Below are positions 1,017-56,930 of a stretch of 64,000 bases of DNA, piece after piece (the first letter of the stretch is position 1; each line of letters opens with the position of its first letter). The notes beneath the pieces were generated by a model. It searched no databases, had not been told where the DNA came from, and was given only the letters and a program-made list of their open reading frames with translations. This DNA is from Epinephelus fuscoguttatus. Lineage: Eukaryota; Chordata; Actinopteri; Perciformes; Serranidae. A program made the translations under genes and the position numbers. The stretch covers positions 40,890,033-40,954,032 of the forward strand of contig NC_064769.1 of NCBI RefSeq assembly GCF_011397635.1. Direction: 5' to 3'.

Positions 1017-8320
<7,304 letters not shown>

Positions 8321-14900: not shown

Positions 14901-17900
14901 TAGAGCCTCCACTTCAGTGAGTAGAGCCTCCACTTCAGTGAGTAGAGCCTCCACTTCAGTGAGTAGAGCATCCACTTCAGTGAGTAGAGTCTCCACTTCA
15001 GTGAGTAGAGTCTCCACTTCAGTGAGTAGAGTCTCCACATCAGTGAGTAGAGCCTCCACTTCAGTGAGTAGAGTCTCCACTTCAGTGAGTAGAGTCTCCA
15101 CATCAGTGAGTAGAGCCTCCACTTCAGTGAGTAGAGTCTCCACTTCAGTGAGTAGAGCCTCCACATCAGTGAGTAGAGCCTCTACTTCAGTGAGTAGAGC
15201 CTCCACATCAGTGAGTAGAGCCTCCACTTCAGTGAGTAGAGCCTCCACATCAGTGAGTAGAGCCTCCACTTCAGTGAGTAGAGCCTCTACTTCAGTGAGT
15301 AGAGTCTCCACTTCAGTGAGTAGAGTCTCCACATCAGTGAGTAGAGCCTCCACTTCAGTGAGTAGAGCCTCCACTTCAGTGAGTAGAGCCTCCACATCAG
15401 TGAGTAGAGCCTCCACTTCAGTGAATAGAGCCTCCACATCAGTGAGTAGAGCCTCCACATCAGTGAGTAGAGTCTCCACTTCAGTGAGTAGAGCCTCCAC
15501 ATCAGTGAGTAGAGCCTCCACTTCAGTGAATAGAGCCTCCACATCAGTGAGTAGAGCCTCCACTTCAGTGAGTAGAGCCTCCACTTCAGTGAGTAGAGTC
15601 TCCACTTCAGTGAGTAGAGCCTCCACTTCAGTGAATAGAGCCTCCACATCAGTGAGTAGAGCCTCCACATCAGTGAGTAGAGTCTCCACTTCAGTGAGTA
15701 GAGCCTCCACATCAGTGAGTAGAGCCTCCACTTCAGTGAATAGAGCCTCCACATCAGTGAGTAGAGCCTCCACTTCAGTGAGTAGAGTCTCCACTTCAGT
15801 GAGTAGAGCCTCCACATCAGTGAGTAGAGCCTCCACTTCAGTGAATAGAGCCTCCACATCAGTGAGTAGAGCCTCCACTTCAGTGAGTAGAGCCTCCACA
15901 TCAGTGAGTAGAGCCTCCACTTCAGTGAGTAGAGCCTCCACTTCAGTGAGTAGAGCCTCCACTTCAGTGAGTAGAGCCTCCACTTCAGTGAGTAGAGCCT
16001 CCACTTCAGTGAGTAGAGCCTCCACATCAGTGAGTAGAGCCTCCACATCAGTGAGTAGAGCCTCCACTTCAGTGAGTAGAGCCTCCACTTCAGTGAATAG
16101 AGTCTCCACATCAGTGAGTAGAGCCTCCACTTCAGTGAGTAGAGCCTCCACATCAGTGAGTAGAGCCTCCACATCAGTGAGTAGAGCCTCCACTTCAGTG
16201 AATAGAGCCTCCACATCAGTGAGTAGAGTCTCCACATCAGTGAGTAGAGCCTCCACATCAGTGAGTAGAGCCTCCACTTCAGTGAGTAGAGTCTCCACTT
16301 CAGTGAGTAGAGTCTCCACTTCAGTGAGTAGAGCCTCCACTTCACATTCTGTTAAGTTTTTCTTTTTCCCATCTTACTCATTCTTTTGTTTTAGTTTTCT
16401 GATGGTGCAGAGAGGGGAATCTCAGTTCATTTAAATATGATTTGAATATTTGAATGGGGGCGTGGACAGGGAGGGGTCGGGTACTCCAACATGTGCTCAG
16501 TTCCACGTTGATTGGGATGTACAAAGGAAATTTACTTGGATTAATGTGTACGCACAGATTCATACATCTGGATGTTTTTGTGCGTACAACGTTTTCTGGA
16601 TTTCAGCGTACGCCGTGTTTCAGTAGGAAATCCACTCATCGTGTTGATCAGCATGATGATCAGCGTGTTCATCAACGTGTTCATCAATGTATTGATCAGT
16701 GTGTTGATCAGCGTGATGATCAGCGTGTTGATCAGCGTGTTGATCAGCGTGTTCATCAATGTATTGATCAGTGTGTTGATCAGCGTGATGATCAGCGTGT
16801 TCATCAACGTGTTCATCAATGTATTGATCAGTGTGTTGATCAGCGTGTTGATCAGCGTGTTCATCAGCGTGTTGATCAGCGTGTTGATCAACGTGTTCAT
16901 CAATGTATTGATCAGTGTGTTGATCAGCGTGATGATCAGCGTGTTGATCAGCATATTGATCAGCGTGTTCATCAATGTATTGATCAGTGTGTTGATCAGC
17001 GTGATGATCAGCGTGTTGATCAGCGTATTGATCAGCGTGTTCATCAATGTGTTCATCAGTGTATTGATCAGTGTGTTGATCAGCATGATGATCAGCGTGT
17101 TCATCAATGTATTGATTAGCGTGATGATCAGCGTGTTGATCAGCTTGATGATCAGCGTGTTCATCAACGTGTTCATCAATGCGTGTTGATCAGCGTGTTG
17201 ATCAGCATATTGATCAGTGTGTTGATCAGCGTGATGATCAGCGTGTTCATCAATGTGTTCATCAATGCGTGTTGATCAGCGTGTTGATCAGCATATTGAT
17301 CAGCGTGTTCATCAATATATTGATCAGTGTGTTGATCAGCATATTGATCAGCGTGTTCATCAATATATTGATCAGCGTGATGATCAGCATATTGATCAGC
17401 GTGTTCATCAATATATTGATCAGTGTGTTGATCAGCATATTGATCAGCGTGTTCATCAATATATTGATCAGCGTGATGATCAGTGTGTTGATCAGCGTGT
17501 TGATCAGCATATTGATCAGCGTGTTCATCAATATATTGATCAGCGTGTTGATCAGCGTGATGATCAGCATATTGATCAGTGTGATGATCAGCGTGTTCAT
17601 CAATGTATTGATCAGCCTGATGATCAGCGTGTTGATCAGTGTGATGATCAGCGTGTTCATCAATGTATTGATCAGCCTGATGATCAGCGTGTTGATCAGC
17701 TTGATGATCAGCGTGTTGATCAATGTATTGATCAGCGTGTTCATCAGTGTGTTCATCAATGTATTGATCAGCGTGTTCATCAGTGTGTTCATCAATGTAT
17801 TGATCAGCGTGTTGATCAGCATATTGATCAGTGTGATGATCAGCGTGTTGATCAGCATATTGATCAGTGTGATGATCAGCGTGTTGATCAGTGTGATGAT

Positions 17901-20900
17901 CAGCGTGTTCATCAATGTATTGATCAGCCTGATGATCAGCGTGTTGATCAGTGTGATGATCAGCGTGTTCATCAATGTATTGATCAGCGTGTTGATCAGT
18001 GTGTTGATCAGCGTAATGATCAGCATGTTGATCAGTGTGTTGATCAGCGTATTGATCGGTGTGTCGATGTGTTTCAGGTGAACAGATTGGGGATCGTCGC
18101 TGTCAGTGAGTACATTTCAACCCTTTGCAAACTGTGATGATGATGGTGGTGAGAGCTCTGCTCGCCGATTGGCTGCTTTGTTGTGATGTGATGTGGTGGT
18201 TGCTCAGGTAACAGCCTGTCAGATGACATCAGCTGTGTGGCAGCAGACAGGATGTTGGTGTTTGCCGCCGCCGGGTGCCTCATCAGCGCCTTCGCCCGGA
18301 ACAAAGAGGTGACAAAACTTTCTGAACAGACAAGAGGGGACAGAGACAGGACGCCACACTGACATGACCCTCTGCACTCTCTGTACAGGTGGTGATGTGT
18401 TACCATGGACACAAACAGGAAGTGCGTTTGCTGCTTCCTCTGGGTGATCAGCTGATCTCAGCCGACAGCGGCGGTGATGTCATCGTGTGGGACGTACAGA
18501 GCGGGGGTGAGGGGGTGGAGCTTCACACACTCTCACCTACTTCTTTCTGTTGCCTGTCCTGTTAGCCATCATGCCTCTCTGTCTCCGTCAGACATCTACC
18601 TGCGGCTGCAGTTCGACCTCGCCACCTTCGACGTGTCAGCCATGATGCACCCCAGCACCTACCTGAACAAAGTGCTGCTGGGGAGCTCCCAGGGTGCACT
18701 GCAGCTGTGGAACATCAAGACCAGGTTAGCATGTTAGCGTCCTGGCTAACGGGCCTCTCGACTGCAGCACGTGATCTGTGATCAGTCATTGACGTCTCTA
18801 ACCAGATGTTTCCTGTTTGTGTTTTCAGTAAGTTGTTGTTCACGTTTGGTGGCTGGTCGGCTCGAGTCACAGTCCTGCAGCAGGTCGGTCACTTCACTCA
18901 TCGAGCCTGATGTTTGTTTTCTTTTTATTGTTTGTTTTTATTTAAACTTTTCATAATTCTAAAAGAATAAATCTGAACTTTAATCTTTTGTAAACAAAGT
19001 TAATGTCGTCTGAATGTTGCCGAAAGGAAAACATCGTATTTATTCACTCTTTTATTCTAACCATCATTTCCCAGAGTCCCGCTGTAGATGTGGTTGGCGT
19101 TGGCACAGCGACGGGACGCATCATCATTCACAACATCCGATTGGACGAGATGCTGATGAGCTTCACGCAGGACTGGGGACCAATCAGCTCGCTCGCTTTC
19201 AGAACAGGTGAGGGTGGAATATGAGACAGGTTCTTCACAGAACGTTCCCGTAACGTTCCTGGCAGGCTCCCTCCAGGTTCCCATTTCGGTAACCCCCCCA
19301 CAACGTTGTAAGAACGTTGTTCCGATGGGTTTGATAAACCAAACGTTCCCAACGTTGTAATAACCACATGGAAGAACGTTTTCAGTGTCATTTGTATCAC
19401 GTTCCCCGCAGGTTGTCCTTTAAGTAATCCTCCCACAGCGTTCTGGGAACGTTACAATAAGTCTGCGTTTTTCTGTCGGTGTTTATTGACCGGGAGACTT
19501 CATGACCGTTTTTGAAATAATGTCCTTCTCTGTGTCAGATGGTCCTCCCACCCTGGTGTCGGGCAGTCCTCAGGGCCACATTGCATTCTGGGATTTGGAG
19601 CGCCGTCAGCTGATCACTCAGCAGAGACACGCCCACAGCACGGCCATCGCCGCCGCAACCTTCCTGCACGGGGAGCCGCTATTGGTCACTAACGGAGCCG
19701 ACAATGCCATCAAGGTAAAACATCAGACAGGTGTGATGTCATCACCACATGTTCATGTGTTGATTTATTTTTGATAAGATGTGTTTTATTTGGTTCACTT
19801 AATTATTAACTCTCTGAACCAGTGTCTGCCGTGGTGATGTCACTTCCTGGATGGTATTAAAATGGGGTCATAAAATATATTCAGTTCATTTCAGTTCAGT
19901 TTTATTTATAAAGCCCAATATCACAAATCATAATTTGCCTCAGATAATTTACAGCATACAACATCCCTCTGTCCGTAGGACCCTCACATCAATAAAAAAT
20001 CAGTTTTTATTTATTCTTTTTTTTTATGTATTCTACAAAATAAAAACACAGAACATTTTTAAATGTCGAAAGATAAAGAAAATATCTTTCGACAGTATCT
20101 GTCAGTGATCTGAAGTGTCTTAGTTTTTAAAATATGATTATTGTTATGAACAGAGTGAAAAAATGTGATGGATTCATCCTTCAGTCCTCTGGCGACACTG
20201 TGCAGTTTTACACCACACATGACGCACCGCTGTGACATCATTACGAGCGCCCAGTGTGATCACGGGGAGCTCAGACGCCTCACCGTTCTGCAGTAAAAAT
20301 AATTCATGTTATAGATATTATGGTTTTAATTTTACGTCCATATATGTGCAAGATTATACAAACAATAGTCTCCTGCGGCTGCTGGGGGAAACTCTGATGT
20401 AATCACGGCAAAATACTACGTCTGTACGACATGCGAGGTCAGGTGACGTCATGAGGTGATGGTGGTGACGACAGAAGCCTGAGCTTTAAACAGGATCATA
20501 AGACCAGTGCAGGGTGAAAGGCGTAGCTCCTCCTCCTCTCACAACGATAACCTATCGTGTTTTTTCAGGTGTGGATATTTGACCAGGAGGGAGGCGGAGC
20601 CAGATTGCTGCGGAGTCGTCAGGGCCACAGCGCCCCGCCCACCACCATCCGTCACCACGGTAACGACGGGAAAAATATCCTCAGTGCTGGTCAGTAAACA
20701 CGTTCATCATCTGCAGAGAACATGATTCATTTTTATTTGTTTACCTGTTTTATTTGTTTGCTTGCTTTCAGGACTGTTAATTTATTTCATCCAGTTATGA
20801 AAAAAACACAAACATTTTTTTAGCACTTTTTTCATCAGATAGTTTCTCATACGGTTTTTCTGAATATTTTGCGGACTGTCTCTGTGTCCCGCTGTGAGTA

Positions 20901-23900
20901 AATCAGACGTGTCTTCTGCCCCCTGCAGGTCAGGACGGGACGCTGCAGTCCTTCTCCACCGTCCACGAGCGTTTCAACAAGAACCTCGGACACGGTCAGT
21001 TCAGACTCACTAAACACTCGGCTCACAGACTCAGACTGAGCCGCTGTGTGATTTGGTTTCCATGGTAACAGCCAATCAGAGTTTATGGAGTAAAATAGGA
21101 TGGTTAGTTTAGTTTCCTGTTCCTGAGTGAGACAGGAAGTTAAAGGGACATTGTGTAACATTTTCAGTTGTTTATTGGCAAAAATTGATGTCTGCATTCA
21201 TAAATATGTCATCACTGGTGTACTATTACCTCCACCAATAATCTGACTTATTCTCGTAAAATGAGAATTTCAGATTTGTTTGTACATTGTGCGGGTAAGT
21301 CGTCTGTGGGGTTCCATTACGTTTCGCCATCTTGAGAATACACCCGCCAGCAAGGAACATACAGCACCGCCTTCGGCGTTTTCATTGAGAGCCAGGTCAG
21401 CACTGCGTGACTGAGGAGCCGAAGGAGAGGAGCGAGAGGCGCCTCGCTACTACCCTGGCAAATATGAAACAAACTCCCACTCTTTAAGCATAATGCAGGA
21501 TCATGCATATGCAGCATCATGGGAGACAGAATCCTTGTCGCCAAGAAAGCGCAAAAGGCAATAGAAAAGGCAGCGTGACCGGCAAATTAAAAAAACAAGG
21601 GTCAGCATCGGGGTAGCCTTTCCCAGGTGGAGAGCTGCTGAGGGAGAATGGTAATGCAATCACAGGCCAGCGCCGCTGTTGGCTGTTAGCCGCTGTTAGC
21701 GGCCAATCACTAACAGCCTCATCCCTCTCCTTGCATCACTGCGCCGCTGTTAGCTGTTAGTTGTTAGCCACTGTTAGCCGCTGTCAGCCGCTGTTAGCGC
21801 TGGCTTGTGATTGTATTACCTTTCTCCTTCAGCAGCTCTCTCCGCCTGGGAAAGGCAACCCCAATGCTGACCCTTGTTTTTTTAATTTGCCGGTCTCGCT
21901 GCCTTTTTGATTCCCTTTTGCACTTTCTTAGCGATGAGGATTCTGTCTCCTGTGATGCTGCATAATACATGATCCTGCATCATGCTCAAAGAGTGGGACT
22001 TTGTTATGCGGCAGTAGTGCCGCTGGCCACTAACAGCTGTTATCGGCGCAGTAATGCGAGGAGAGGGATGAGGTGTGTGAGGTTGAGCCACTTGTCAGTT
22101 GTCAAAGGACAAGACGTGATTGGTTTGTTTCAATTTACATCCGCCCCAATAGTCCTACGTTGTAAACACAGCCAGCATGGTGAGGAGGGGGTTTGTCAAC
22201 TCGCGTCACGTGTGTCTGTGTAGCAGCCTGAATGAGTACTCCATGAAGTATCGGATGACGTGGTTTCACCAGTGTTATCATAGCTTTTTGGTACACAGCA
22301 GCTACTGTAGTTGCAATACATGTTTGAAACAGCGAGGCGCTAGAGTGCGCCATCTGTTTGAATACAATATATGATTTCAACGTTAGATGGGAGAAATTCC
22401 TACACACTGTGGCTTTAAGGTGGTGTCTCAGTTCAGGGCTGCAGCCTTCGACGCCTGCGCCTGAAGACCGACACTGAGGCCGTCCCACATCGAAGGCTCC
22501 TTCAGATGCAGCCTTGTGTCCCAGACTCTGGAGGATGTAACCGATGAATCCTTCGTGGCCCAGCCTATCCCAAGATGCATTGCACACTGATGACGATTAT
22601 ATATTAAGTGCAGTTAACTGGCTGATGCTTAACTGTTGCTAACATTGCGTTAGCTAAAAGCTCACAGCTCAAACAATCTGAATTTAATATGGTTACCTGA
22701 AAACGCTGCGTCAGCCTGAAATACATCAGACGGCGGTGAATCATCTTCATCATCAACATATTTAATACCAACCTGTGGGTCCATGATTCAGCACCAACTA
22801 ACTCACTAGCTTACTCCTTCTTTCCTCAAGTGCAGCTGGTTGCTAGGTAACAGGGACGCCCACAAGTTGGGGCGAGAACAACTGGTGATGCAACCAGGAA
22901 ATGCTCTGCAGACCAGACCATCCCATTTCAGAGACTGTTAAGTTTGAGTGGTGCGTCTTCAGAGAACGCGGCCGACGTCGACCACGAAGGTGGTTAATGG
23001 TTAGATTATTTGTGTAGTTTTCAAAAGTTGGGGCCTTAGAATGACAGAGTGCAGTGACGAGTCCACAGATAGGGGTTACTGTGGTTCTGTTGTGTTGTCT
23101 TGCTGTTGGCTCAGTGGTTTCCTTGGTGGTGAGGGACCATGTGAGGAGACGGGGTCAGTTTGTGTCTGAATCAGCAGGGTGAGATCTGATGTGGTCTGAT
23201 CTTGTTACTGACGTACAGTTTGTATTTGAGATTCTTTGTCAAGTTCTGAATGTGTCGATCAGTGAGATGTGAGTCAAGGAATACTCCGACACATCTGCAG
23301 GTTTCTGTGTTTCTTTGACAAACTGGACAGGGTCGGACATAGATACTGTTTTTTCAGGGGGATGAAATACATACATCCTGTTTTTTCTTGTGGTTCAGAT
23401 CAGACGATGTGTCAGATTAAGGACGTCAGTGTCAGACAGAAACATTACAGTGTCATCGACACATAGAAAACAATTAGAATATTGACACACGTTAGGGTCA
23501 CTGATGTGAAGGAGGAAAAGTAGAGGACTCAAAACGCTGCCATGTGGAACTCCCATATTATGGGTCAGAGGGAGAGGAGCTACCTGATTGATTTTTATTT
23601 ACCTGAGACGTGTTAGACAGACGACAGGAGAGCAGTGACATCACAGACGGGGAGATGAGGATGACTCAGGGCAGTTTGACAACCTGCTGTCTATCATTGG
23701 GTCGTATAGCTCTGGGTATCCAGCAACCACTACCACCAGTTTCTCCTCCATTGTTTACCAGCTGTAAACTTGTTGTCATGACCACCACAGAAGCCCCGCC
23801 TCTCAAATCATCCCATTGGACAATGGGGGAAAAAAGTGGCGATGACGTGGGGCGCTCCTCTATCCTGAGTTGAAGTTTTAGCAACTCGAGGAATTCAGAC

Positions 23901-24264
23901 GGCAGGCGCCTAGAGAGCAGAAACACAAGGTGCGTCCCAACAACAGTGAGCAAAAAGCTTCATTCTGATTTAAAACAAAATGGCGCCTCGAGCTGCTGAG
24001 TCACTTCCTGTGTGACCAGGACCTTAATCTGCACATTCATCACCCAACACATCAGCACATTGTTTTCTAGTCGGAGCGGCGCCTCGATGAGCAGTGCTAA
24101 CATCAACCTGCATAGTTGGTCCTCCAGTGTGACATCAGAAAGTGTCACATTTCTTCTTCTTCTATGGTTTGTTTACTTCCTGGATTCTGACCAATCAGGA
24201 GCAGCTTTCTTGTGCAGGCACTTGATCTGGTCCGCCTGTAAATGCTGAGAACACGAACCAACTC

Positions 24265-24308
<44 letters not shown>

Positions 24309-27300
24309 TGTATGTCAGGCTCCATCAACAAGAAAAAGGAGCAGAAGAAGAAGAAGGGGCTGTCCTACGAGGAGCTGCGTCTACCTGCCATCACAGCGTT
24401 CTCCTCAGGTGGGCACTCTGACTCAGTCTCATCACGTTCTCCACACAGGAAACATCTCATTTAACCATTTCCTCCTCTGATGATTGACAGCTGCCGCTCG
24501 TCAGTCAGACTGGGACGGCATTGTCGCGTGTCACCGTGGTCGCCTGGCAACCACCACATGGAACTACCAGCGCTGCACCATGGGAGCTCATCACCTGCAG
24601 CCGCCAGCCGCTAGCAGGACCAGTATCGCCACGGTAACATAACTTTAACTCCCTTTGTTTCTCTAAGTCCCTCCCCCATCTTTCTCTGATGGTCACGTGA
24701 CTTCCTGTCTCTGTTTCCAGGCTGTCGACATCACTTCCTGTGGCAACTTTGCTGTGATTGGGTCGTCGTGCGGCCGTGTCGACGTCTACAACCTGCAGTC
24801 CGGCCTGCACCGTGGTTGCTATGGCAATGAGGAGAAAGGTGTGTTCACCTGTTCTTGTCTGTGATAGGTCCATTCTGTGTCTCCTTCCATCAATAACCCC
24901 GCCCCCTTCTGTTCCAGCTCACAGCGGGGCAGTACGAGGCCTTGCCACGGATACCCTGAACCAGTTGACTCTCACCACAGGCTCTGATTGGCTGCTCAAG
25001 TTCTGGCACTTTAAGAGCAGGAAACAGGAAGAGCAGCTGAAGCTACATGCTGCGCCAGCTAGCATGAAGCTACACAGAGACAGGTAGCTAACAGTAATCA
25101 CGAAGCTACACAAAGACAGGTAGCTAACAGTTATCACGAAGCTACACAGAGACAGGCAGCTAACAGTTAGCACGAAGCTATACAGAGACAGGTAGCTAAC
25201 AGTTAGCACGAAGCTACACAGAGACAGGTAGCTAACAGTTAGCACAAAACTACACAAAGACAGGTAGCTAACAGTTAGCACGAAGCTACACAGAGACAGG
25301 CAGCTAACAGCACAAAACTACACAGACAGGTAGCTAACAGTTAGCACGAAGCTACACAGAGACAGGTAGCTAACAGTTAGCATGAAGTTACACAAAGACA
25401 GGTAGCTAACAGTTAGCACGAAGCTACACAGAGACAGGTAGCTAACAGTTAGCACAAAACTACACAAAGACAGGTAGCTAACAGTTAGCACGAAGCTACA
25501 CAGAGACAGGTAGCTAACAGTTAGCATGAAGCTATGCAAAGATAGGTAGCTAACAGTTAGCACGAAGATACACAGACAGGTAGCTAAGAGTTAGCATGAT
25601 GCTACACAGAGACAGGTAGCTAACAGCACGAAGCTACACAAAGACAGGTAGGTAACAGTTATCACGAAGCTACACAGAGACAGGTAGCTAACCGTTAGCA
25701 TGAAGCTACACAGAGACAGGTAGCTAACAGTTATCACGAAGCTACACAGAGACAGGCAGCTAACAGTAAGCATGATGCTACACAGGGACAGATAGCTAAC
25801 AGTTAGCATAAAGCTATACAGACACAGGTAGCTAACAGTTGGTATGATGCTCCATGGAGACAGGTAGCTAACAGTTAGCATGAAGCTACACATACAGTTA
25901 GCTAACAGTGTTCTCTTTCTTTTATGTTAGTGGGATGTTAGCATTAGCACTGGATGACTTCACGCTACTGGTGGTCGACATAGAAACCAGACGGGTGGTC
26001 AGGAAGTTTGTTGGTCACCACGGCAACATTAACGACATGGTGGGTCCGCTAAAGCTAACTAGGCTAACATCTTGCTAAAGGTGTTGAATAAGCTAGAGTG
26101 CTAACAGACTGCTAACAGCATTCACTTTGTTTTTTCTTTCTCAGACATTCAGTCCTGATGGCCGCTGGCTGGTTACCGCAGCGATGGACTGCACCATTCG
26201 TACCTGGGATCTACCCTCTGGATGGTAAAAATGGAACAGTCCACTGCTTTTACTATTACCATGCCACACAGATTCAATTTCGAATCAATCAATTTTATTT
26301 ATAAAGCCCAATATCACAAATCACAGTTTGCCTCACAGGGCTTTACAGCATACGACATCCCTCTGTCCTTATGACCCTCACAGCTGATCAGGAAAAACTC
26401 CCCAAAAAACCCTTTAACGGGGAAAAAACGGTAGAAACCTCAGGAAGAGCAACTGAGGAGGGATCCCTCTTCCAGGACGGACAGATGTGTTGTTCACACC
26501 TTCACACAGGCGCCGTTCACACCTTCACACAGGCGTTGTTCACACCTTCACACAGGCGCCGTTCACACCTTCACACAGGCGTTGTTCACACCTTCACACA
26601 GGCGCCGTTCACACCTTCACACAGACGCCGTTCACACCATTCACACCTTCACACAGGCACCGTTCACACCTTCACACAGGCGCCATTCACACCTTCACAC
26701 AGGCGCCGTTCACACCTTCACACAGGCGCCGTTCACAACTTCACACAGAGATCATTATATAGAAACAGGAATAATTATATGTTTTTCTTTTTTCAGTCTT
26801 GTTGACTGTTTCCTGGTTGCCATGGCGCCTGTGGGCGTGTCCTTGTCGCCAACTGGAGACTTCCTGGCGACTGTTCATGTTGACAGCCTGGGCGTCTACC
26901 TCTGGTCTGAACCAATCATCTCTTTTTCCCGACCAATCACATTGCAGTGTTTTGTTACAGTAGCCAATCAGATATGTTGTCAGTTTAATTTCTTTATTGA
27001 TGAGTCACTGTCAGCTGATCCTTCCAGCAGCCAATCACAGTGCAGCTCTCCTCCCTCAGGACCAATAAGAGTCTGTGTGGGCCTGTTGGGCTCCGCCCCC
27101 TCTCAGTTGACCATCAACCAGCTGAGGAGATGCTTCCGGGGGTCACTGCAGACGAGTCGGGACAGGAGGTGGCATTAGAAGAGGCTGATGATGCGTATGA
27201 GTCAGCTGAGCAGTTGGGGGCAGAGCTTGTGACTCTGTCTCTGCTGCCGGAGTCCCGGTGGAAAAGTCTGCTGCACCTGGACGTCATCAAGGTAAGTCTG

Positions 27301-29393
27301 CCGCCAGGTGAGAGTCTGCCGCCAGGTGAGAGTCCGCCCAGCTTCATGGAGTCAGGTCACACAGCGCCATGTCTGAGAATATGAGCATGTAAAACAACAC
27401 TGTTTACTTATAAACAGGACAGTGTGTTGGTGCAATCAGTGAGCTGTTTATGATTTATTAGTAAACAATAAACAGAGAAACAATGTGTTTGTATGACATT
27501 GCCGTTGATGACAGTCACTGAGAAGCTGAATGTGTTGTGTTGTCTGTAGAGAAGGAATAAACCTGTGGCGCCCCCTGCTGCTCCGGCTGCCGCTCCGTTC
27601 TTCCTGCCGACACTTCCTGGTCTCACGCCTCGATTCACGTCGCCCCCAGCAACAGAACAAGAAACACAGGTACAGTCCGTGTTCTGTCTTCTTATCTTTC
27701 CCGCTGAGCTTTTATTTCTAAAATCCTGTTTTCCTGCTGTCAGGCATCTGTGTTTTCACTTCCTGTAGAGACGTTACTGAACAACAACAACAACAACAGT
27801 AATATTGTTCGTAATTATAGTTTGTTTGTTTCCAGTCAAAGCTGATGAGTTGGGGTTCGTTGTGTCAGAGGTCAGAGTTCAGCTGTGCTCTGGAGTCAGC
27901 TCTTCAGTCTGGATCATGTGAGTCTCAGCTGGTTCCTTCATTTTGATGACCAACATCCGCACCATATCACACCTGGAGACAGCTGTAATGCTGTGCAGTT
28001 ATTGGACAGGGGGCGTGGCCAGTGGTTTTCGTTAAGCCCTCAAATACATGCCGGGGTCGGGACAACGTTCCTCTGATGGGTTAGGCGTTTCTCTCATCTG
28101 TAAAAACAATTAACTGACAGGAAGTCATGTTCTTCATGAAGACGCCGTTCACACCTTCGCTCATACACTGTTCACACCTTCGTACAGACTGTTCACACCT
28201 TCACCCAGACACTGTTCACACCTTCGTACAGACACTGTTCACACCTTCGTACAGACTCCGTTCACACCTTTGTACAGACACTGTTCACACCTTTACCCAA
28301 ACACTGTTCACACCTTCACACAGACACTGTTCACACCTTTACCCTGACACTGTTCACACCTTCACAGACACTGTTCACACTTTCACAGACACTGTTCACA
28401 CCTTCACCCAGACTCCGTTCACACCTTCGTACAGAGACTGTTCACACCTTCGTACAGAGACTGTTCACACCTTCATACAGACACTATTCACACCTTCGTA
28501 CAGACACTGTTCACACCTTCGTACAGACACTATTCACACCTTCGTACAGACTCCATCCACACCTTCACCCAGACACTGTTCACACCTTCACCCAGACACT
28601 GTTCACACCTTCACCCAGACACTGTTCACACCTTCGTACAGACACTGTTCACACCTTCGTACAGACTCCATCCACACCTTCACCCAGACACTGTTCACAC
28701 CTTCGTACAGACACTGTTCACACCTTCGTACAGAGACTGTTCACACCTTTACCCAGACACTGTTCACACCTTCGTACAGACACTGTTCACACCTTCACAG
28801 ACACTGTTCACACTTTCACAGACACTGTTCACACCTTCACCCAGACTCCGTTCACACCTTCGTACAGAGACTGTTCACACCTTCGTACAGAGACTGTTCA
28901 CACCTTCATACAGACACTATTCACACCTTCGTACAGACACTGTTCACACCTTCGTACAGACACTATTCACACCTTCGTACAGACTCCATCCACACCTTCA
29001 CCCAGACACTGTTCACACCTTCACCCAGACACTGTTCACACCTTCGTACAGACACTGTTCACACCTTCGTACAGACTCCATCCACACCTTCACCCAGACA
29101 CTGTTCACACCTTCGTACAGACACTGTTCACACCTTCGTACAGACTCCGTTCACACCTTTGTACAGAGACTGTTCACACCTTTACCCAGACACTGTTCAC
29201 ACCTTCACACAGACACTGTTCACACCTTTACCCTGACACTGTTCACACCTTCACAGACACTGTTCACACCTTCACACAGACACTGTTCACACCTTCACCC
29301 TGACACCGTTCACACCTTCACACAGACACTGTTCACACTTTCACACAGACACTGTTCACACACATTGACGCTGATAATATATACGTGCGTGCA

Positions 29394-29434
<41 letters not shown>

Positions 29435-29924
29435 TGATAACATGAAACTTGGACAAACTGTTGATATAAGCTATAAATAAAGTGTTTTTTTTCCGTGCAG
29501 TCGATCACCCGCTGCGTCTCCTGAAGGATTATGGGCCGGCGGCGCTCTCTGTCGAGCTGACCGGTTTGACATCAGAGGAGGGAAGGGCCAGCAGCCTTCT
29601 CCTTGCCTTCATTCACATGATTGATAGCATGTTGGCCAGTGGACGGGACTTTGATCTGGCTCATGCTTACCTGGCTCTCTTCCTGAAGGTCAGCCAATCA
29701 GAACACAGCAGTCTTTTATTGTGAAAATGTTTCCTCAATTTCCTGTGTCATTACTTTATGTTCATGTCTTTCAGCTCCATCTCCGCTCCGTGTCACAGGA
29801 CTCTGTTACCATGGCAGCGCTGCTCTGCCTCTCCTCCCGGCTGGAGTCAGGGTGGGTGGAGCTACAGGCATCATTTGACCAATCACTGTGTCTGCTTTCA
29901 TACACCAAGAGTGCCCTGCTGTGA
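11903..29924 (+). CDS. wdr36: WDR36 (Utp21), small-subunit processome WD-repeat protein (22 coding exons)
   Basis: Coding exons: 11903-12049, 18078-18105, 18208-18308, 18389-18506, 18592-18724, 18829-18883, 19075-19207, 19539-19714, 20569-20689, 20929-20994, 24319-24408, 24491-24633, 24721-24838, 24918-25083, 25931-26039, 26145-26224, 26797-26904, 27060-27291, 27550-27669, 27836-27917, 29501-29688, 29775-29924. All phases join, giving 887 aa (human about 895 from the equivalent start). Two WD40 propellers cover about residues 20-630, with blades ending VIVWD, LQLWN, IAFWD, LLKFW and IRTWDLPSG (589-594). The C-terminal Utp21 domain has the SLLPESRWKSLL and LAHAYLALFLKL blocks and ends KSALL. 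WDR36 belongs to the nucleolar UtpB module that processes 18S pre-rRNA. The least certain junction is exon 17/18, where the donor is GTCTGA. Exon 14 ends inside a minisatellite unit. Confidence 0.95.
12530..14139. mobile_element. hAT-type non-autonomous transposon with perfect 8-bp target duplication
   Basis: It begins CAGGGCTTAACG and ends GTCGAGCCCTG, so the tips are the hAT-like CAGGG/CCCTG. It is flanked by the identical octamer GTATAGGT at 12522-12529 and 14140-14147. An 8-bp duplication is the hAT signature. The 1.6-kb interior has no intact transposase; it holds CACATGTGC motifs near both ends and possibly a further nested insertion around 12600-13100. Confidence 0.85.
14347..14674. 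mobile_element. hAT-like MITE
   Basis: A 15-bp terminal inverted repeat, TAGGGTTGGGTCGGT at 14347-14361 and ACCGACCCAACCCTA at 14660-14674, is perfect. Flanking octamers are CTGTGTGT (14339-14346) and CTGTGTGA (14675-14682), 7 of 8 identical, consistent with an 8-bp hAT target duplication. The interior is non-coding and contains long T tracts. Confidence 0.85.
14786..16342 (+). repeat. 21-bp minisatellite in wdr36 intron 1 (about 74 copies)
   Basis: The unit is AGTGAGTAGAGCCTCCACTTC with recurrent variants (CC/TC, TTC/ATC, GAGT/GAAT). Since 21 is a multiple of three, all frames without a stop stay open, producing spurious frames over 500 aa on both strands. Blocks containing the GAATAG variant recur with a regular spacing between about 15420 and 15860, suggesting segmental duplication within the array. 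Confidence 0.97.
16641..18063 (+). repeat. 12-bp minisatellite ending at the wdr36 exon 2 acceptor
   Basis: The unit is GTTGATCAGCGT with variants GTTCATCAACGT, GATGATCAGCGT and ATTGATCAGTGT, about 118 copies. Most units contain the palindrome TGATCA. The array stops about 15 bases before the start of exon 2 at 18078, so the exon 2 branch point and polypyrimidine region must lie in or very near the array. Frames rich in VDQR or LISV are artefacts. Confidence 0.97.
19232..19460. repeat. Degenerate AACGTTC-rich repeat in wdr36 intron 7
   Basis: AACGTT-centred motifs (GAACGTTCCCGTAACGTTCC and similar) recur irregularly in both orientations because AACGTT is palindromic. Unit length is not constant, so this is an old or diverged array. 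Confidence 0.65.
19877..19980 (-). mobile_element. L2-like LINE 3'-end fragment, copy 1
   Basis: On the minus strand this ends with the GTGATATTGGGCTTTATAAA-type sequence followed by a short AAC/TGAA-rich tail, the same 3' end as at 26270, 42071 and 51050. Only about 100 bases remain. Confidence 0.6.
21144..22414. mobile_element. TTAA-flanked fold-back element with an internal palindrome
   Basis: It is bounded by TTAA at 21140-21143 and 22415-22418, the target of piggyBac-type transposases. The ends are related but imperfect inverted repeats (AGGGACATTGTGTAACATTT versus AGCCACAGTGTGTAGGAATT when reversed). Inside, about 21460-21690 is the inverted copy of about 21795-22010, with short CGCTGTTAGC repeats in the loop. 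No transposase is present, so it would be non-autonomous. The internal palindrome may be a second nested element. Confidence 0.6.
22430..23160. other. wdr36 intron 10, no recognised feature
   Basis: Nothing coding could be supported. The sequence has the texture of an old non-autonomous DNA element but neither ends nor duplications could be fixed. Confidence 0.3.
23170..23562 (-). pseudogene. Decayed LINE reverse-transcriptase fragment
   Basis: The minus strand from about 23555 reads GVPHGSVLSPLLF, which matches the conserved G-V-P-Q-G-S-V-L-S-P-L-L-F block of LINE reverse transcriptases. About 35 codons on it reads FLCVDDTVMF, the altered counterpart of the catalytic Y-A-D-D motif. Stop codons follow downstream. 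It lies antisense in wdr36 intron 10 and is a dead insertion. The clade could not be assigned. Confidence 0.75.
25060..25915 (+). repeat. 36-bp minisatellite that includes the wdr36 exon 14 end and its 5' splice site
   Basis: The unit is ACGAAGCTACACAGAGACAG followed by GTAGCTAACAGTTAGC. The first copy spans the 3' end of exon 14 (residues SMKLHRDS) and the exon/intron junction at 25083/25084; about 23 further copies fill intron 14 up to about 16 bases before exon 15. Nearly every copy repeats CAG|GTAGCT or a close variant (CAGGCAGCT, CAGATAGCT), so the intron holds many copies of its own donor. Confidence 0.95.
26270..26482 (-). mobile_element. L2-like LINE 3'-end fragment, copy 2
   Basis: This is the reverse complement of the same 3' segment seen at 42660-42856 and 51350-51545, including CAACTGAGGAGGGATCCCTC and the AAGCCCAATATCACAAATCA block. 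It lies in wdr36 intron 16 directly next to the 23-bp minisatellite. Confidence 0.75.
26491..26750 (+). repeat. 23-bp minisatellite in wdr36 intron 16 (about 11 copies)
   Basis: The unit is GTTCACACCTTCACACAGGC plus GCC. It ends about 47 bases before exon 17. The same 23-bp unit type, with CAGACACT instead of CAGGCGCC, makes the array in intron 20. Confidence 0.95.
28140..29360 (+). repeat. 23-bp minisatellite in wdr36 intron 20
   Basis: The unit is GTTCACACCTTCACCCAGAC plus ACT, with variants TTCGTACAGACACT, TTTACCCAGACACT and a shorter CTTCACAGACACT. A block from about 28395 to 28685 is repeated almost verbatim about 425 bases later (28820 onward), so larger segments have also been duplicated. 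A 369-aa plus-strand frame is an artefact of the array. Confidence 0.95.
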
Positions 29925-29954: not shown

Positions 29955-30085
29955 AGTTGTTGTTGATCTTTCTGCTTCTGTGTTGTGAGTTTTTCTGTGA
30001 TAATACACGTAGTAGTGTGGAAGGGGTGGAGCCTCAGAGACGAGTCAGCTGATGTGATTCCAGATTAATCAGGTGCATGATTTAT

Positions 30086-33000
30086 GATGACATACTATAC
30101 TATGACTTTTTTTCCTGATTTTGGACGACATGCTATACTATGACTTTTTTTTTCATGATTTTGGACGACATACTATACTATGACTTTTTTTCGTGATTTT
30201 GGACGACATGCTATACTATGACGTTTTTATTTCATGATTTTGGACGACATGCTATACTAAGATGTTTTTTTTCATGATTTTGGACAACATGCTATACTAT
30301 GACCTTTTTTTTCATGATTTTGGACGACATACTATACTATGACTTTTTTTCGTGATTTTGGACGATATGCTATACTATGATGTTTTTTCATGATTTTTGA
30401 GCACATGCTATACTACGACATTTTTTTTGTGATTCTGGACGACTTACTTTACTATGACGTTTTCTGGTGATTATGGACGACATGCTATACTGTGACGTTT
30501 TTTTCTTGTGCCTGTACGCCATATGACATTTTTTCATGATTTTTGAGCAGATGCTATTCTATGATGTTTTTTCGTGATTATGGACGACATGCTATACTGT
30601 GACGTTTTTTTCTTGTGCCTGTACGCCATGTGATGTTTTTTCATGATTCTTGAGCAGATGCTATACTATGACGTTTTTTCGTGATTATGGACGACATGCT
30701 ATACTGTGACGTTTTTTTCTTGTGCCTGTACGCCATGTGACCTTTTTTTCATGATTTTTGAGCAGATGCTATACTATGACGTTTTTTTGTGATTATGGAC
30801 GACATGCTATACTCTGATGTTTTTTTTCTTGTGCCTGTACGACATATGATGTTTTTTCATGATTTTTGAGTAGATGCTATACTATGACGTTTTTTTGTGA
30901 TTATGGACGACATGCTATACTATGATGTTTTTTTTTCTTGTGCCTGTACGCCATATGACGTTTTTTCATGATTTTTGAGCAGATGCTATACTATGACGTT
31001 TTTTTGTGATTATGGACGACATGCTATACTATGATGTTTTTTTTTCTTGTGCCTGTACGCCATATGACGTTTTTTCATGATTTTTGAGCAGATGCTATAC
31101 TATGACGTTTTTTTGTGATTATGGACGACATGCTATACCATGATGTTTTTTTTCTTGTGCCTGTACGACATATGACGTTTTTTCATGATTTTTGAGCAGA
31201 TGCTATACTATGACGTTTTTTTGTGATTATGGACGACATGCCATACTGTGACGTTTTTTCTTGTGCCTGTACACCATATGATGTTTTTTCATGATTCTTG
31301 AGCAGATGCTATACTACGATGTTTTTTTGTGATTATGGACGACATGCTATACTGTGACGTTTTTTTCTTGTGCCTGTATGACATATGACGTTTTTTCATG
31401 ATTTTTGAGCAAATGCTATACTATGACGTTTTTTCATGATTTTTGAGCACATGCTATACTACAACATTTTTTGTGATTCTGGACGACTTACTTTACTATG
31501 ACGTTTTTTCGTGATTATGGACGACATGCTATACTATGATGTTTTTTTCTTGTGCCTGTACGCCATATGACGTTTTTTTCATGACTTTTGAGCAGATGCT
31601 ATACTATGACGTTTTTTCGTGATTATGGACGACATGCTATACTGTCATGTTTTTTTCTTGTGCCTGTACGCCATATGACGTTTTTTCATGATTTTTGAGC
31701 AGATGCTATACTATGACGTTTTTTTGTGATTATGGACGACATGCTATACTGTGACGTTTTTTTCTTGTGCCTGTACGCCATATGACGTTTTTCATGATTT
31801 TTGAGCAGATGCTATACTATGACGTTTTTTCGTGATTATGGACGACATGCTATACTGTGACGTTTTTTTCTTGTGCCTGTACGCCATATGACGTTTTTTC
31901 ATGATTTTTGAGCAGATGCTATACTATGACGTTTTTTCGTGATTATGGACGACATGCTATACTGTGACGTTTTTTTCTTGTGCCTGTACGCCATATGACG
32001 TTTTTTCATGATTTTTGAGCAGATGCTATACTACAACGTTTTATTGTGATTATGGACGACATGCTATACTGTGACGTTTTTTTCTTGTGCCTGTACGCCA
32101 TATGACGTTTTTTCCTGATTTTTGAGCAGATGCTATTCTATGACGTTTTTTCGTGATTATGGACGACATGCTATACTGTGACGTTTTTTTCTTGTGCCTG
32201 TATGACATATGATGTTTTTTCATGATTTCTGAGCAAATGCTATACTACAACGTTTTTTTGTGAAGATGGATGACATGCTATATTGTGACGTCTTTTTCTT
32301 GTGCCTGTATGACATATGACGTTATTTGATGATTTTTGAGCACATGCTATACTACGACATTTTTTTGTGATTCTGGACGACTTACTTTACTATGACGTTT
32401 TTTCGTGATTATGGACGACATGCTATACTGTGACGTTTTTTTCTTGTGCCTGTACGCCATGTGATGTTTTTTCATGATTTTTGAGCAGATGCTATACTAT
32501 GATGTTTTTTTGTGATTATGGATGACATGCTATACTGTGACGTTTTTTTCTTGTGCCTGTACGCCATATGACGTTTTTTCATGATTTTTGAGCAGATGCT
32601 ATACTACAACGTTTTATTGTGATTATGGACGACATGCTATACTGTGATGTTTTTTTCTTGTGCCTGTACGCCATATGACGTTTTTTCATGATTTTTGAGC
32701 AGATGCTATACTACAACATTTTATTGTGATTATGGACGACATGCTACACTGTGACGTTTTTTTCTTGTGCCTGTACGCCATGTGATGTTTTTTCATGATT
32801 TTTGAGCAGATGCTATACTATGACGTTTTTTTGTGATTATGGACGACATGCTATACTGTGACGTTTTTTTCTTGTGCCTGTACGCCATATGACGTTTTTT
32901 CATGATTTTTGAGCAGATGCTATACTACAACGTTTTATGGTGATTATGGACGACATGCAATACTGTGACGTTTTTTTTCTTGTGCCTGTACGCCATATGA

Positions 33001-36000
33001 CGTTTTTTCATGATTTTTGAGCAGATGCTATTCTATGACGTTTTTTCGTGATTATGGACGACATGCTATACTGTGACGTTTTTTTCTTGTGCCTGTATGA
33101 CATATGATGTTTTTTCATGATTTCTGAGCAAATGCTATACTACAACGTTTTTTTGTGAAGATGGATGACATGCTATATTGTGACGTCTTTTTCTTGTGCC
33201 TGTATGACATATGACGTTATTTGATGATTTTGAGCACATGCTATACTCGACATTTTTGCGATTCTGGACGACTTACTTTACTATGACGTTTTTTCGTGAT
33301 TATGGACGACATGCTATACTGTGACGTTTTTTTCTTGTGCCTGTACGCCATGTGATGTTTTTTCATGATTTTTGAGCAGATGCTATACTATGACGTTTTT
33401 TTGTGATTATGGACGACATGCTATACTGTGACGTTTTTTTCTTGTGCCTGTACGCCATATGACGTTTTTTCATGATTTTTGAGCAGATGCTATACTATGA
33501 CGTTTTTTTGTGATTATGGACGACATGCTATACTGTGACGTTTTTTTCTTGTGCCTGTACGCCATATGACGTTTTTTCATGATTTTTGAGCAGATGCTAT
33601 ACTATGACGTTTTTTTGTGATTATGGACGACATGCTATACTGTGACGTTTTTTTCTTGTGCCTGTACGCCATATGACGTTTTTTCATGATTTTTGAGCAG
33701 ATGCTATACTACAACGTTTTATGGTGATTATGGACGACATGCAATACTGTGACGTTTTTTTTCTTGTGCCTGTACGCCATATGACGTTTTTTCCTGATTT
33801 TTGAGCAGATGCTATTCTATGACGTTTTTTCGTGATTATGGACGACATGCTATACTGTGACGTTTTTTTCTTGTGCCTGTATGACATATGACGTTTTTTC
33901 ATGATTTTTGAGCACATACTATACTATGATGTTTTTTCATGATTTTTGAGCAAATGCTATACTACAACGTTTTTTTTGTGAAGATGGATGACATGCTATA
34001 CTGTGACGTTTTTTTCTTGTGCCTGTACGCCATGTGACGTATTTTCATGGTTTTTGAGCAGATGCTATACTACAACGTTTTATTGTGATTATGGACGACA
34101 TGCTATACTGTGACGTTTTTTTCTTGTGCCTGTACGCCATGTGACGTGTTTTCATGATTTTTGAGCAGATGCTATACTACAACGTTTTATTGTGATTATG
34201 GACGACATGCTATACTGTGACGTTTTTCTTGTGCCTGTCGCCATATGACGTTTTTTCATGATTTTGAGCAGATGCTATGACGTTTTTTGTCATTATGGAC
34301 GACATGCTATACTGTGGCGTTTTTTCTTGTGCCTGTACGCTATGTGATGTTTTTTCATGATTCTTGAGCAGATGCTATACTATGACGTTTTTTTGTGATT
34401 ATGGACGACATGCTATACTGTGACGTTTTTTTCTTGTGCCTGTACGCCATATGACGTTTTTTCATGATTTTTGAGCAGATGCTATTCTATGATGTTTTTT
34501 CGTGATTATGGACGACATGCTATACTGTGACGTTTTTTTCTTGTGCCTGTACGCCATATGCTTTTTCATGATTTTGAGCAGTTGCTATTCTATGACGTTT
34601 TTTGGTGATTATGGACGACATGCTATACTGTGACGTTTTTTCTTGTGCCTGTACGCCATATGACATTTTTTCATGATTTTTGAGCAGATGCTATACTACA
34701 ACGTTTTATTGTGATTATGGACGACATGCTATACTGTGACGTTTTTTTCTTGTGCCTGTACGCCATATGACGTTTTTTCATGATTTTTGAGCAGATGCTA
34801 TTCTATGATGTTTTTTCGTGATTATGGACGACATGCTATACTGTGACGTTTTTTTCTTGTGCCTGTACGCCATATGACATTTTTTCATGATTTTTGAGCA
34901 GATGCTATACTATGATGTTTCTTCGTGATTATGGACGACATGCTATACTATGACGTTTTTTTCTTGTGCCTGTACGCCATGTGACATTTTTTCATGATTT
35001 TTGAGCAGATGCTATACTATGATGTTTTTTCGTGATTATGGACGACATGCTATACTGTGACGTTTTTTTCTTGTGCCTGTACGCCATCTAACGTTTTTTC
35101 ATGATTTTTGAGCAGATGCTATTCTATGACGTTTTTTCGTGATTATGGACGACATGCTATACTGTGACGTTTTTTTCTTGTGCCTGTATGACATATGACG
35201 TTTTTTCATGATTTTTGAGCACATACTATACTATGATGTTTTTTCATGATTTCTGAGCAAATGCTATACTACAACGTTTTTTTGTGAAGATGGATGACAT
35301 GCTATATTGTGACGTCTTTTTCTTGTGCCTGTATGACATATGACGTTATTTGATGATTTTTGAGCACATGCTATACTACGACATTTTTTTGTGATTCTGG
35401 ACGACTTACTTTACTATGACGTTTTTTCGTGATTATGGACGACATGCTATACTGTGACGTTTTTTTCTTGTGCCTGTACGCCATGTGACGTTTTTTCATG
35501 ATTTTTGAGCAGATGCTATACTACAACGTTTTATTGTGATTATGGACGACATGCTATACTGTGACGTTTTTTTCTTGTGCCTGTACGCCATATGACGTTT
35601 TTTCATGATTTTTGAGCAGATGCTATACTATGACGTTTTCTGGTGATTATGGACGACATGCTATATTGTGACGTTTTTTTCTTGTGCCTGTACGCCATGT
35701 GACGTGTTTTCATGATTTTTGAGCAGATGCTATACTACAACGTTTTATTGTGATTATGGACGACATGCTATACTGTGACGTTTTTTTCTTGTGCCTGTAC
35801 GCCATATGACGTTTTTTCATGATTTTTGAGCAGATGCTATACTATGACGTTTTTTTGTGATTATGGACGACATGCTATACTGTGGCGTTTTTTTCTTGTG
35901 CCTGTACGCCATGTGATGTTTTTTCATGATTCTTGAGCAGATGCTATACTATGACGTTTTTTTGTGATTATGGACGACATGCTATACTGTGACGTTTTTT

Positions 36001-38531
36001 TCTTGTGCCTGTACGCCATATGACGTTTTTTCATGATTTTTGAGCAGATGCTATTCTATGATGTTTTTTCGTGATTATGGACGACATGCTATACTGTGAC
36101 GTTTTTTTCTTGTGCCTGTACGACATGTGACCTTTTTTTCATGATTTTTGAGCAGATGCTATACTTTGACGTTTTTTCGTGATTATGGACGACATGCTAT
36201 ACTATGATGTTTTTTTTCTTGTGCCTGTACGCCATGTGACATTTTTTCATGATTTTTGAGCAGATGCTATACTATGATGTTTTTTCGTGATTATGGACGA
36301 CATGCTATACTATGACGTTTTTTTCTTGTGCCTGTACGCCATCTAACGTTTTTTCATGATTTTTGAGCAGATGCTATACTATGACCTTTTTTTGTGATTA
36401 TGGACGACATGCTATACTATGACATTTTTTTCTTGTGCCTGTACGCCATCTGACGTTTTTTCATGATTTTTGAGCAGATGCTATTCTATGATGTTTTTTC
36501 GTGATTATGGACGACATGCTATACTGTGACGTTTTTTTCTTGTGCCTGTACGCCATGTGACCTTTTTTTTATGATTTTTGAGCAGATGCTATACTATGAC
36601 GTTTTTTCGTGATTATGGACGACATGCTATACTATGATGTTTTTTTGTGATCATGGACGACATGCTATACTGTGACGTTTTTTTCTTGTGCCTGTACGAC
36701 ATATAACGTTTTTTTCATGATTTTTGAGCAGATGCTATACTATGACGTTTTTGCGTGATTTTGGATGACATACTATACTACGACGTTTTTTCATGATTAT
36801 GGACGACATACTATACAACATTTTTTTGTGATTATGGACTACATACTATACTGTCACGTTGTTTTCTTGTGCCTGTACAACATGACATTTTTTTCATGAT
36901 TTTTGACTAAATATTATGCTGTGACATTTTTTTTCTTGATTTTGAACGGCATTATGGTTTTTCATGATTTTGGACGACATACTATACTACAACATTTTTT
37001 TGTGATTATGGACAACATACTATACTATGACTTTTTTTGGCGATTTTTGACAAGATACTATACTATGACGTTCTTTCATGATTTTGGACGACACGCTACA
37101 CTACGACGTGTTTTTGTGATCATGGACAACATACGATACTATGATGTTTTTTTTGCGATTTTTGACGACATACTATGACGTTTTTTTGCGATTTTTGACA
37201 ACATGCTATACTGTGACGTTTTTTTCTTGTGCCTGTACGACATATGACGTTTTTTCATGATTTTTGAGCAAATGCTATACTATGATGTTTTTCGTGATTT
37301 TGGACGACATAGTATACTACGATATTTTTTCGTGATTATGGACAACATACTATACTATGACTTTTTTTGTGATTATGGACAACATATTATACTATGACGT
37401 TTTTTGTGATTATGGACAACATACTATACTATGACGTTTTTTTGTGATTATGGACGACATACTATACTACGTTTTTTTGTGATTATGGACAACATGCTAT
37501 ACTGTGACATTGTTTTCTTGTGCCTGTACGACATGTGACATTTTTTTCATGATTTTTGACTAAATATAATGCTGTGACATTTTTTTTCTTGATTTTGAAT
37601 GCCATTATATTTTTTCATGATTTTGGACGACATACTACACTACAACGTTTTTTTGTGATCATGGACAACATACTATAGTATGACGGGTTTTTTTTGCGAT
37701 TTTTTACGACATACTATACTATGGCGTTTTTTCATGATTTTGGACGACACGCTACACTACGATGTGTTCTTTTGATTATGGACAACATACTATACTATGA
37801 TGTTATATTGCGATTTTTGACGACATACTGTACTATGACGTTTTTTCATGATTGTGGACGACATGCTACATTATGACGTGTTTTTGTGATTATGGACAAC
37901 ATACCATACTCTGACGTTTTTCCGTGATTATAGATGACATACTATGCTATGATGTTTTTTTAATTATTTTTGATGACATACTATACTATGATGTCTTTTC
38001 ATGAATTTTGATGCTATATTATGACGTTTCGTGATTATAGGCGACATACTATACTATGATGTTTTTTTCATGATTTTGAACGACGTCCTATACTATATTT
38101 TTTCATGATTTTTGATGAAATATTATATTATGACGTTTTGTCATAATTTTTGACGACATACTATACTACTACCTTTTTTTCATGATTTTTGAGGACATGT
38201 TATACTATGATGTTTTGTGATGATTTTTGACCACATACTATACTACGACCTTTGTTTCATGATTTTTGAGGACATATTGTACGACGTTTTTTTTCATGAT
38301 TTTTGACATCTTATACTATGACGTTTTCTTCATGTTTTTTGATGACATGCTATACTATGATGTTTTGTCAAGATTTTGGACGACATGATATACTGTTTTT
38401 TCATGATTTTGGACAACGTATTATACCATGACTTTTCTTTATGATTTTGGACGACATATGACGTTTATTCGTAATTTTTTACGACATACTATAGTATGAC
38501 GTTTTGTCATGATTTTGGACAACATACTGTA
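30086..38531. repeat. Satellite with 107-bp higher-order repeat between wdr36 and prpf4
   Basis: At the edges the monomer is about 37 bases, of the type TTTTTTCATGATTTTGGACG plus ACATACTATACTATGAC. From about 30500 to 36700 three monomer types alternate: a CTTGTGCCTGTACGCCATA type (31 bases), a CATGATTTTTGAGCAGATGC type (38) and a GTGATTATGGACGACATGC type (38), giving a 107-bp higher-order unit (for example CTTGTGCCTG at 33441, 33548 and 33655). Edge monomers are more diverged than central ones. Smaller blocks of the same satellite continue at 38868-39068 and 39627-39777. No gene is hidden in it. Confidence 0.97.
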
Positions 38532-38867
38532 GTGACTGGGGCTGTGACTGTGATAAATGAACTGTAAAATGTTGAATGGTCCCATTAAGGGCTCTACCCA
38601 GAATGCACAGTGTTCAGGAGAAGTGTTTGTTGTTGTTGTTTCGTGCGCTCGGAGAGGCATGTTTTTTTTTTTAGTGTTCAATCTGCCTGTGTGTGAGTCT
38701 CATGCAGAAGAGTTTTGTTCCCTTGAGTCTCGGGGTATGCGTTAAGACGGCTTCACGTCAGTTGCAGGATGCCACGCTCTGTTGATGTTCAGGAACGACC
38801 AATAAAAGGGAGCTTTGAGTTTTAAGAAATCCGGTGTTGACTAACTTCAAACTGCTGCTCGTCACAG
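38532..38867. mobile_element. Insertion in the satellite, possibly a solo LTR
   Basis: About 336 bases of unrelated sequence interrupt the satellite. It contains CCAATAAAAGGGAGC (an AATAAA), a T run and an end of the TG...CA kind (GACTGGGGCTGTGAC ... CTGCTCGTCACA). This looks like a single LTR, but the target duplication is unclear (TACT on both sides at best). Confidence 0.4.
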
Positions 38868-39068
38868 TACTATACTATGACGTTTATTTCATGATTTTTG
38901 ACGACATACTATACTACGACGTTTTCTTTATGTTTTTTGATGACATGCTATGCTATGACTTTTTTCATGATTTTTGACGACATACTATAGTATGACATTT
39001 TTTCATGATTTTGGACGACATGCTAAACTATGACGTTTTTTCTTTATTTTGGACAACATACTATCCTA

Positions 39069-39998: not shown

Positions 39999-56930
<16,932 letters not shown>

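Follow-up and report, generated by a model that had tools for sequence, protein, structure and literature searches.

The wdr36 gene and the repeat in intron 14

The window analyzed here is a 64,000-nucleotide stretch of the Epinephelus fuscoguttatus genome. It carries an intact wdr36 gene on the + strand, which in the spliced model comprises 22 coding exons from 11903 to 29924 and encodes 887 residues. The human WDR36 protein (7mq8_LT) aligned with the fish product over residues 5–887 (1187 bits), and Utp21 (5jpq_I), a fungal protein, scored 431 bits against it. When matches of the fish protein were scored in the 1.05-Gb genome, 20 of 22 fell inside the gene itself and the other two were 36% and 35% identical; wdr36 thus appears to be a single-copy gene. 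At the exon 14/15 junction, fish ...LHRD-SG-M... stands against human LHRD-SG-I. The human gene has 23 coding exons, compared with 22 in the fish model, and fish exon 18 (27060–27291) appears to be the counterpart of two human exons, 18 and 19, in which the human residues I713 and V727, respectively, are located (PMC2664842).

The features of exon 14, intron 14, and the tandem array that joins them are as follows.

24918..25083, + strand: wdr36 exon 14, 166 nt (intact 887-aa frame of the spliced model; human WDR36 alignment)
25056..25909, + strand: 36-bp array, 24 copies plus 4 bp, unit CAGTTAGCACGAAGCTACACAGAGACAG/GTAGCTAA (TRF; wrap-around alignment)
25056..25083, + strand: exonic part of copy 1, 28 nt, ending ...S-M-K-L-H-R-D (consensus identity; human/fungal homology)
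25084..25930, + strand: intron 14, 847 bp (22-exon wdr36 model)
25902..25906, + strand: predicted branch site CTAAC, with its A at 25905, 25 nt from the acceptor G (YTNAY scan)
25910..25930, + strand: pyrimidine tract and acceptor, 21 bp, GTTCTCTTTCTTTTATGTTAG, the sole non-repeat part of intron 14 (sequence; array alignment)
25931..26039, + strand: wdr36 exon 15 (spliced model; human WDR36 alignment)

TRF reported a 36-bp period from 25056 to 25909 with 24.1 copies and 85% matches, and the wrap-around alignment gave the same ends. A tandem unit of 36 bp with variant copies falls within the definition of a minisatellite or VNTR (unit of about 10–100 bp). Copy 1 consists of the final 28 coding nucleotides of exon 14 followed by the first 8 nucleotides of the intron, GTAGCTAA, and 23 further copies follow it. 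An earlier note, made from the sequence, had proposed that a repeat with about 23 extra copies duplicates the end of this exon together with its 5′ splice site; both the count and the composition of the unit were borne out. The note was right that the exon shares sequence with the repeat but placed the shared part at 17 nt, whereas its true length is 28 nt. Of the 28 exonic positions of copy 1, 26 are identical to the array consensus; in a simple 25% model, such agreement would arise by chance with a probability of about 5e-14. According to the wrap-around alignment, individual copies carry 0–7 substitutions relative to the consensus, and some also carry indels. The array makes up 826 of the 847 bases of intron 14, so the earlier statement that copies fill the whole intron holds except for the last 21 bp.

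A second TRF period of 282 bp was found, and among the lags examined (1–15), identical copy pairs occurred at lags 2, 4, 6, and 8 only. This pattern is consistent with growth of the array in blocks. At unit column 4, all 21 intronic copies that have a letter there carry T, whereas the exon carries C, which would fit either amplification from one intronic copy or a later change in the exon. Copies 21–24, the most distal, share the T of the exon at column 10, and copy 23 among them is the most divergent. A genome-wide DNA search with the array, which passes over simple repeats and very common words, returned four matches, one of them the locus itself. Of the other three, two overlap each other on contig C6 (70% and 69%) and the third is on C23 (68%); in both regions, TRF detected other GCTAAC-rich units.

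The predicted branch site, the best match in the last 50 bases of the intron, belongs to the terminal part of the array; one other YTNAY occurs in those 50 bases, 6 nt from the AG. In most units, a 5′ splice site is followed within a few bases by a branch-site consensus; by sequence, copies 15 and 17 are the exceptions. The acceptor lies outside the array, so the duplicated segment did not provide both splice sites. Without copies 2–24, intron 14 would measure about 33 nt, whereas the other wdr36 introns here are at least 79 nt. Since this remainder is shorter than any other intron of the gene, the repeat seems to have become the body of the intron.

Donor sites along the array and the reading frame

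Three features describe the donor sites of the array and the consequence of their use.

25081..25089, + strand: authentic donor (donor 1), CAG/GTAGCT (conserved D-S-G junction; PWM 5.98 bits, U1 duplex −7.7 kcal/mol)
25085..25087, + strand: in-frame TAG present in any transcript spliced at a downstream donor (extended-exon translation)
25645..25653, + strand: copy-17 decoy donor, CAG/GTAGGT, the strongest donor-like site of the array (PWM 10.05 bits, U1 duplex −13.4 kcal/mol)

The AG/GT core is kept in 19 of the 24 copies (18 of the 23 downstream of copy 1) and is lost in five, with GC in copies 3, 7, and 20, AT in copy 21, and TT in copy 24. The full 9-mer CAG/GTAGCT is present in 17 of the 24 copies, donor 1 included (16 downstream). 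Copy 14 has the weaker TAG/GTAGCT, and copy 17 is stronger than donor 1, with a PWM score about 4 bits higher and U1 pairing stronger by 5.7 kcal/mol; the donor PWM is a frequency table. Among the 21 wdr36 donors, donor 1 is the seventh weakest by PWM and the eighth strongest by U1 pairing, and copy 17 is exceeded by two of the 21 in PWM and by none in U1 pairing. The earlier picture of near-identical donors in tandem therefore stands for most downstream copies, but they are not all alike, copy 17 being far stronger.

The frame across donor 1 reads GAC AGG TAG, and with any downstream copy the protein would end one codon past the aspartate. The earlier expectation that a downstream copy adds multiples of 12 codons fails on this stop, which is met immediately, and allele length consequently cannot change the protein in 12-codon steps. 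By this translation, full-length protein would be obtained from donor 1 only. Eight introns lie downstream of the TAG. Messages with a stop upstream of several introns are expected targets of nonsense-mediated decay, and the downstream-donor transcripts are probably degraded.

Probable selection of donor 1 among competing sites

The intact and apparently single-copy state of wdr36 implies that donor 1 must be used often enough to make the protein. If the gene works, donor 1 must prevail over 17 sites that lie nearer the acceptor, 16 with its own 9-mer and one that is better. According to passages of PMC6002489, the intron-proximal one of two comparable 5′ sites is favored by a mechanism that is not known, and an excerpt of PMC5585400 indicates that SRSF1 bound upstream of two sites also favors the intron-proximal site; from these preferences, trouble would be predicted for donor 1. 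The earlier note had called the choice of the first donor a real question, and this was a fair assessment, given that the same passages of PMC6002489 describe the mechanism of intron-proximal preference as not known.

RNA folding was used to compare the 17 copies that share the 9-mer. In the predictions at three folding-window sizes, the probability that donor 1 is unpaired was about 106-, 103-, and 8-fold higher than the median of the 16 other copies, and its openness ranked 2, 1, and 2 of 17. The unit is self-complementary, in that AGCTAC can pair with GTAGCT. When copies 2–24 were permuted, donor 1 remained in the top two in 29/40 and 39/40 runs (two folding-window sizes), whereas when the consensus copy 5 was put first, the first place was in the top two in 1/40 and 20/40 runs. 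In this model, the openness advantage of donor 1 depends on both its position at the edge of the array and the sequence of copy 1 itself. However, compared with donor 1, lower openness was predicted for 9 of the 20 remaining wdr36 donors under one setting and for 17 of them under the other; openness by itself therefore gives little indication of use. Copy 17 was also predicted to be open, and after correction for structure, its U1 pairing (about −11 to −12 kcal/mol, compared with −3.9 to −5.5 kcal/mol for donor 1) was the best in the array at all three folding-window sizes. The modeled RNA structure is thus partly suggestive as the chooser of donor 1, but copy 17 wins once U1 pairing is added. 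Because the conserved protein needs donor 1, exon definition or the own enhancers of exon 14 probably carry the choice.

The properties of copy 17 lead to another reading of the array, in which a substantial, perhaps regulated, share of splicing goes to the downstream copies and to copy 17 in particular, so that the early stop and decay would allow array length and sequence to tune wdr36 output. Copy 17 has the best donor score of the array, its U1 pairing is stronger than that of all 21 donors of the gene and stays best after structure correction, and every downstream donor leads to the same early stop. A comparable proposal exists for human TERT, where a 38-bp VNTR in intron 6 is suggested to act as a splicing switch with nonsense-mediated decay (PMC11830802, excerpt). 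Divergence among the intronic copies was also lower in the donor columns (7/207 cells) than in the other columns (46/607 cells). However, the 9-column donor window ranks only 9/36 for low divergence among copies that are not independent, and AG/GT has been lost in 5/24 copies; selection to keep the decoy donors, considered as an explanation, received no clear support. On balance, we regard such tuning as unlikely.

A more specific version is similarly doubtful. According to Sharma 2011, as cited in passages of PMC6002489, U1 protection extends from 23 nt upstream to 12 nt downstream of a site, and this 35-nt footprint is close to the 36-nt period of the array. U1 snRNPs, up to 19 of them, could conceivably sit side by side on the array, with only the most intron-distal donor productive and copy 17 setting a decay loss that depends on copy number and sequence and tunes wdr36 dosage. 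If this were true, it would make the array a natural exception, and an extreme one, to intron-proximal preference.

Origin of the array and comparison with known systems

The reading that we prefer, with a probability of roughly 0.82, is a boundary-spanning minisatellite in an old intron, with donor 1 as the functional donor. The greater strength of copy 17 speaks against donor 1, as does the intron-proximal preference stated in passages of PMC6002489, which predicts use of a downstream copy.

The age of the exon end and of the intron was assessed by comparison with other species. The human WDR36 and fungal Utp21 proteins align through the 28-nt stretch at the end of exon 14, and 'lhrdsg' is present in both fish and human. 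Judged from this homology, the exon end is older than the array, which answers the question raised earlier of whether it preceded the repeat. The part of PMC2765470 that holds Table 3 gives human WDR36 boundaries at c.460, 710, 898, 1074/1075, 1348, 1609, and 2518. After alignment residue offsets of +61, +60, and +64 were added by hand to the fish coding ends, all seven agreed with fish boundaries; the human position of intron 14 itself is not among the seven. Five of them fit as printed, and 1609 and 2518 fit only if the printed minus is read as a plus, a sign that is indicated by IVS13+89 and IVS21+60 (PMC2664842). The human end of exon 14 is predicted at c.1775, and human WDR36 does have an intron 14, as seen from the variant IVS14+89 (PMC2664842). 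The old exon end and the agreeing human boundaries together suggest that the intron is old and that copies of its own 5′ boundary have since overgrown it.

For the boundary-spanning minisatellite, we infer that the 36-bp segment, with 28 nt from the end of exon 14 and 8 nt from intron 14, was tandemly duplicated. In this subterminal and very repeat-rich region, ordinary unequal exchange or slippage would then have multiplied the intronic copies, to the point where they make up nearly all of the intron. Duplications at the boundary can be tolerated, as the protein stays the same when the first donor is spliced; the exon copy would have been kept under protein selection, and the intronic copies would have been free to vary. 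Functional mRNA must come from donor 1, which is probably the donor mainly used, whereas use of a downstream copy would lead to an immediate stop and probably to degradation of the transcript. The array now also carries the predicted branch site.

Recent intron gain, in which intron 14 itself was born by tandem duplication of an AGGT-bearing piece of the exon, is very improbable. In its favor, copies of the exon end make up almost the entire intron, and gains of this type have been published, for example, in potato RdRp (PMC4974935, excerpt). As in those cases, the duplicated segment crosses an exon–intron boundary; in the published gains, however, a new intron arises, whereas in wdr36, an old intron appears to have been overgrown. 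An intron gain would also be marked by absence of the intron in outgroups, and in human, the outgroup considered, IVS14 exists and the boundaries given in Table 3 of PMC2765470 agree with those of the fish; moreover, the 3′ splice site lies outside the array. An assembly artefact with false or miscounted copies is just as improbable, since tandem arrays are prone to miscounting but this one spans only about 0.85 kb, and its copies show as many as 7 substitutions relative to the consensus, some with indels, which argues against duplication during assembly.

The boundary-spanning minisatellite resembles systems described before. In IFI6/6-16, about 26 copies of a 12-bp unit extend from near the end of exon 2; the array starts in the exon, its first unit carries the authentic donor, and downstream use produces longer isoforms. 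The wdr36 array likewise starts in an exon (25056; exon end 25083) with the authentic donor in its first unit, and several downstream units keep a usable donor consensus (AG/GT in 18/23). It differs from IFI6/6-16 in that its 36-bp unit is mostly coding exon, fills the intron, and carries a branch-site match and in that downstream use would lead to a stop. Both are minisatellites whose repeat units contain splice donors (IFI6/6-16 as cited in parts of PMC2572611 and PMC4526556), and two downstream repeat units of IFI6/6-16 are used as donors (PMC4526556, excerpt).

In human segmental duplications, passages of PMC2812944 describe internal tandem repeats at exon–intron boundaries with a mean unit of 30 bp and an average of 4 copies; manual inspection led to a report of 27 intron modifications, fewer than the 53 modifications located within exons. 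These repeats are, as in wdr36, minisatellites at exon–intron boundaries, but they belong to recently duplicated human genes, whereas the wdr36 array has 24 copies in an apparently single-copy conserved gene. The kind is therefore already known from IFI6 and from the boundary repeats of human duplicated genes, and wdr36 is an unusually complete example; it does not represent a new kind of system but is a striking natural case that can be tested. It indicates that a minisatellite can start from an exon–intron boundary and take the place of the intron body while the protein is unchanged. Because all wrong choices of 5′ site would carry an identical early stop, their rate could be measured in RNA, among copies with known single-base differences.

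The surroundings of the array are rich in repeats. Tandem arrays with a period of 8 or more cover 36.3% of the window, compared with 1.07% of the 206,046 bases of 60 control loci from this genome, for which the top 30 of 139 kinase matches and the top 30 of 91 helicase matches were taken. An array touched the matched coding stretch in 0 of the 60 loci and lay within 200 bp in 1 of the 60; this comparison is rough, as the controls are matched domain stretches of about 3.4-kb loci rather than mapped exon ends, and long arrays are cut at locus ends. The end of the window is about 355 kb from the end of its contig (C18). The wdr36 array is thus one of many in the region and is special in having taken in a splice site.

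Other long minisatellites in the window lie at 30076–39069 (about 9 kb), 46520–49611 (about 3 kb), and 4657–7391 (about 2.7 kb). In wdr36 itself, a second tandem was found on the donor side of an exon.

27292..27338, + strand: exon 18 donor AAG/GTAAGT, followed by two CAG/GTGAGA, 18-bp repeat (TRF 27295–27338; sequence)

By sequence, the extra donors of this tandem would, if used, add 16 or 34 nt and shift the frame. In intron 1, a 24/60-bp array (16636–18068) reaches to within 9 bp of the intron end (exon 2 starts at 18078). Introns 16 (26492–26748) and 20 (28140–29361) contain arrays whose 23-bp units, TTCACACCTTCACACAGGCGCCG and AGACACTGTTCACACCTTCGCAC, closely resemble each other, a similarity that looks as though one array had seeded the other.
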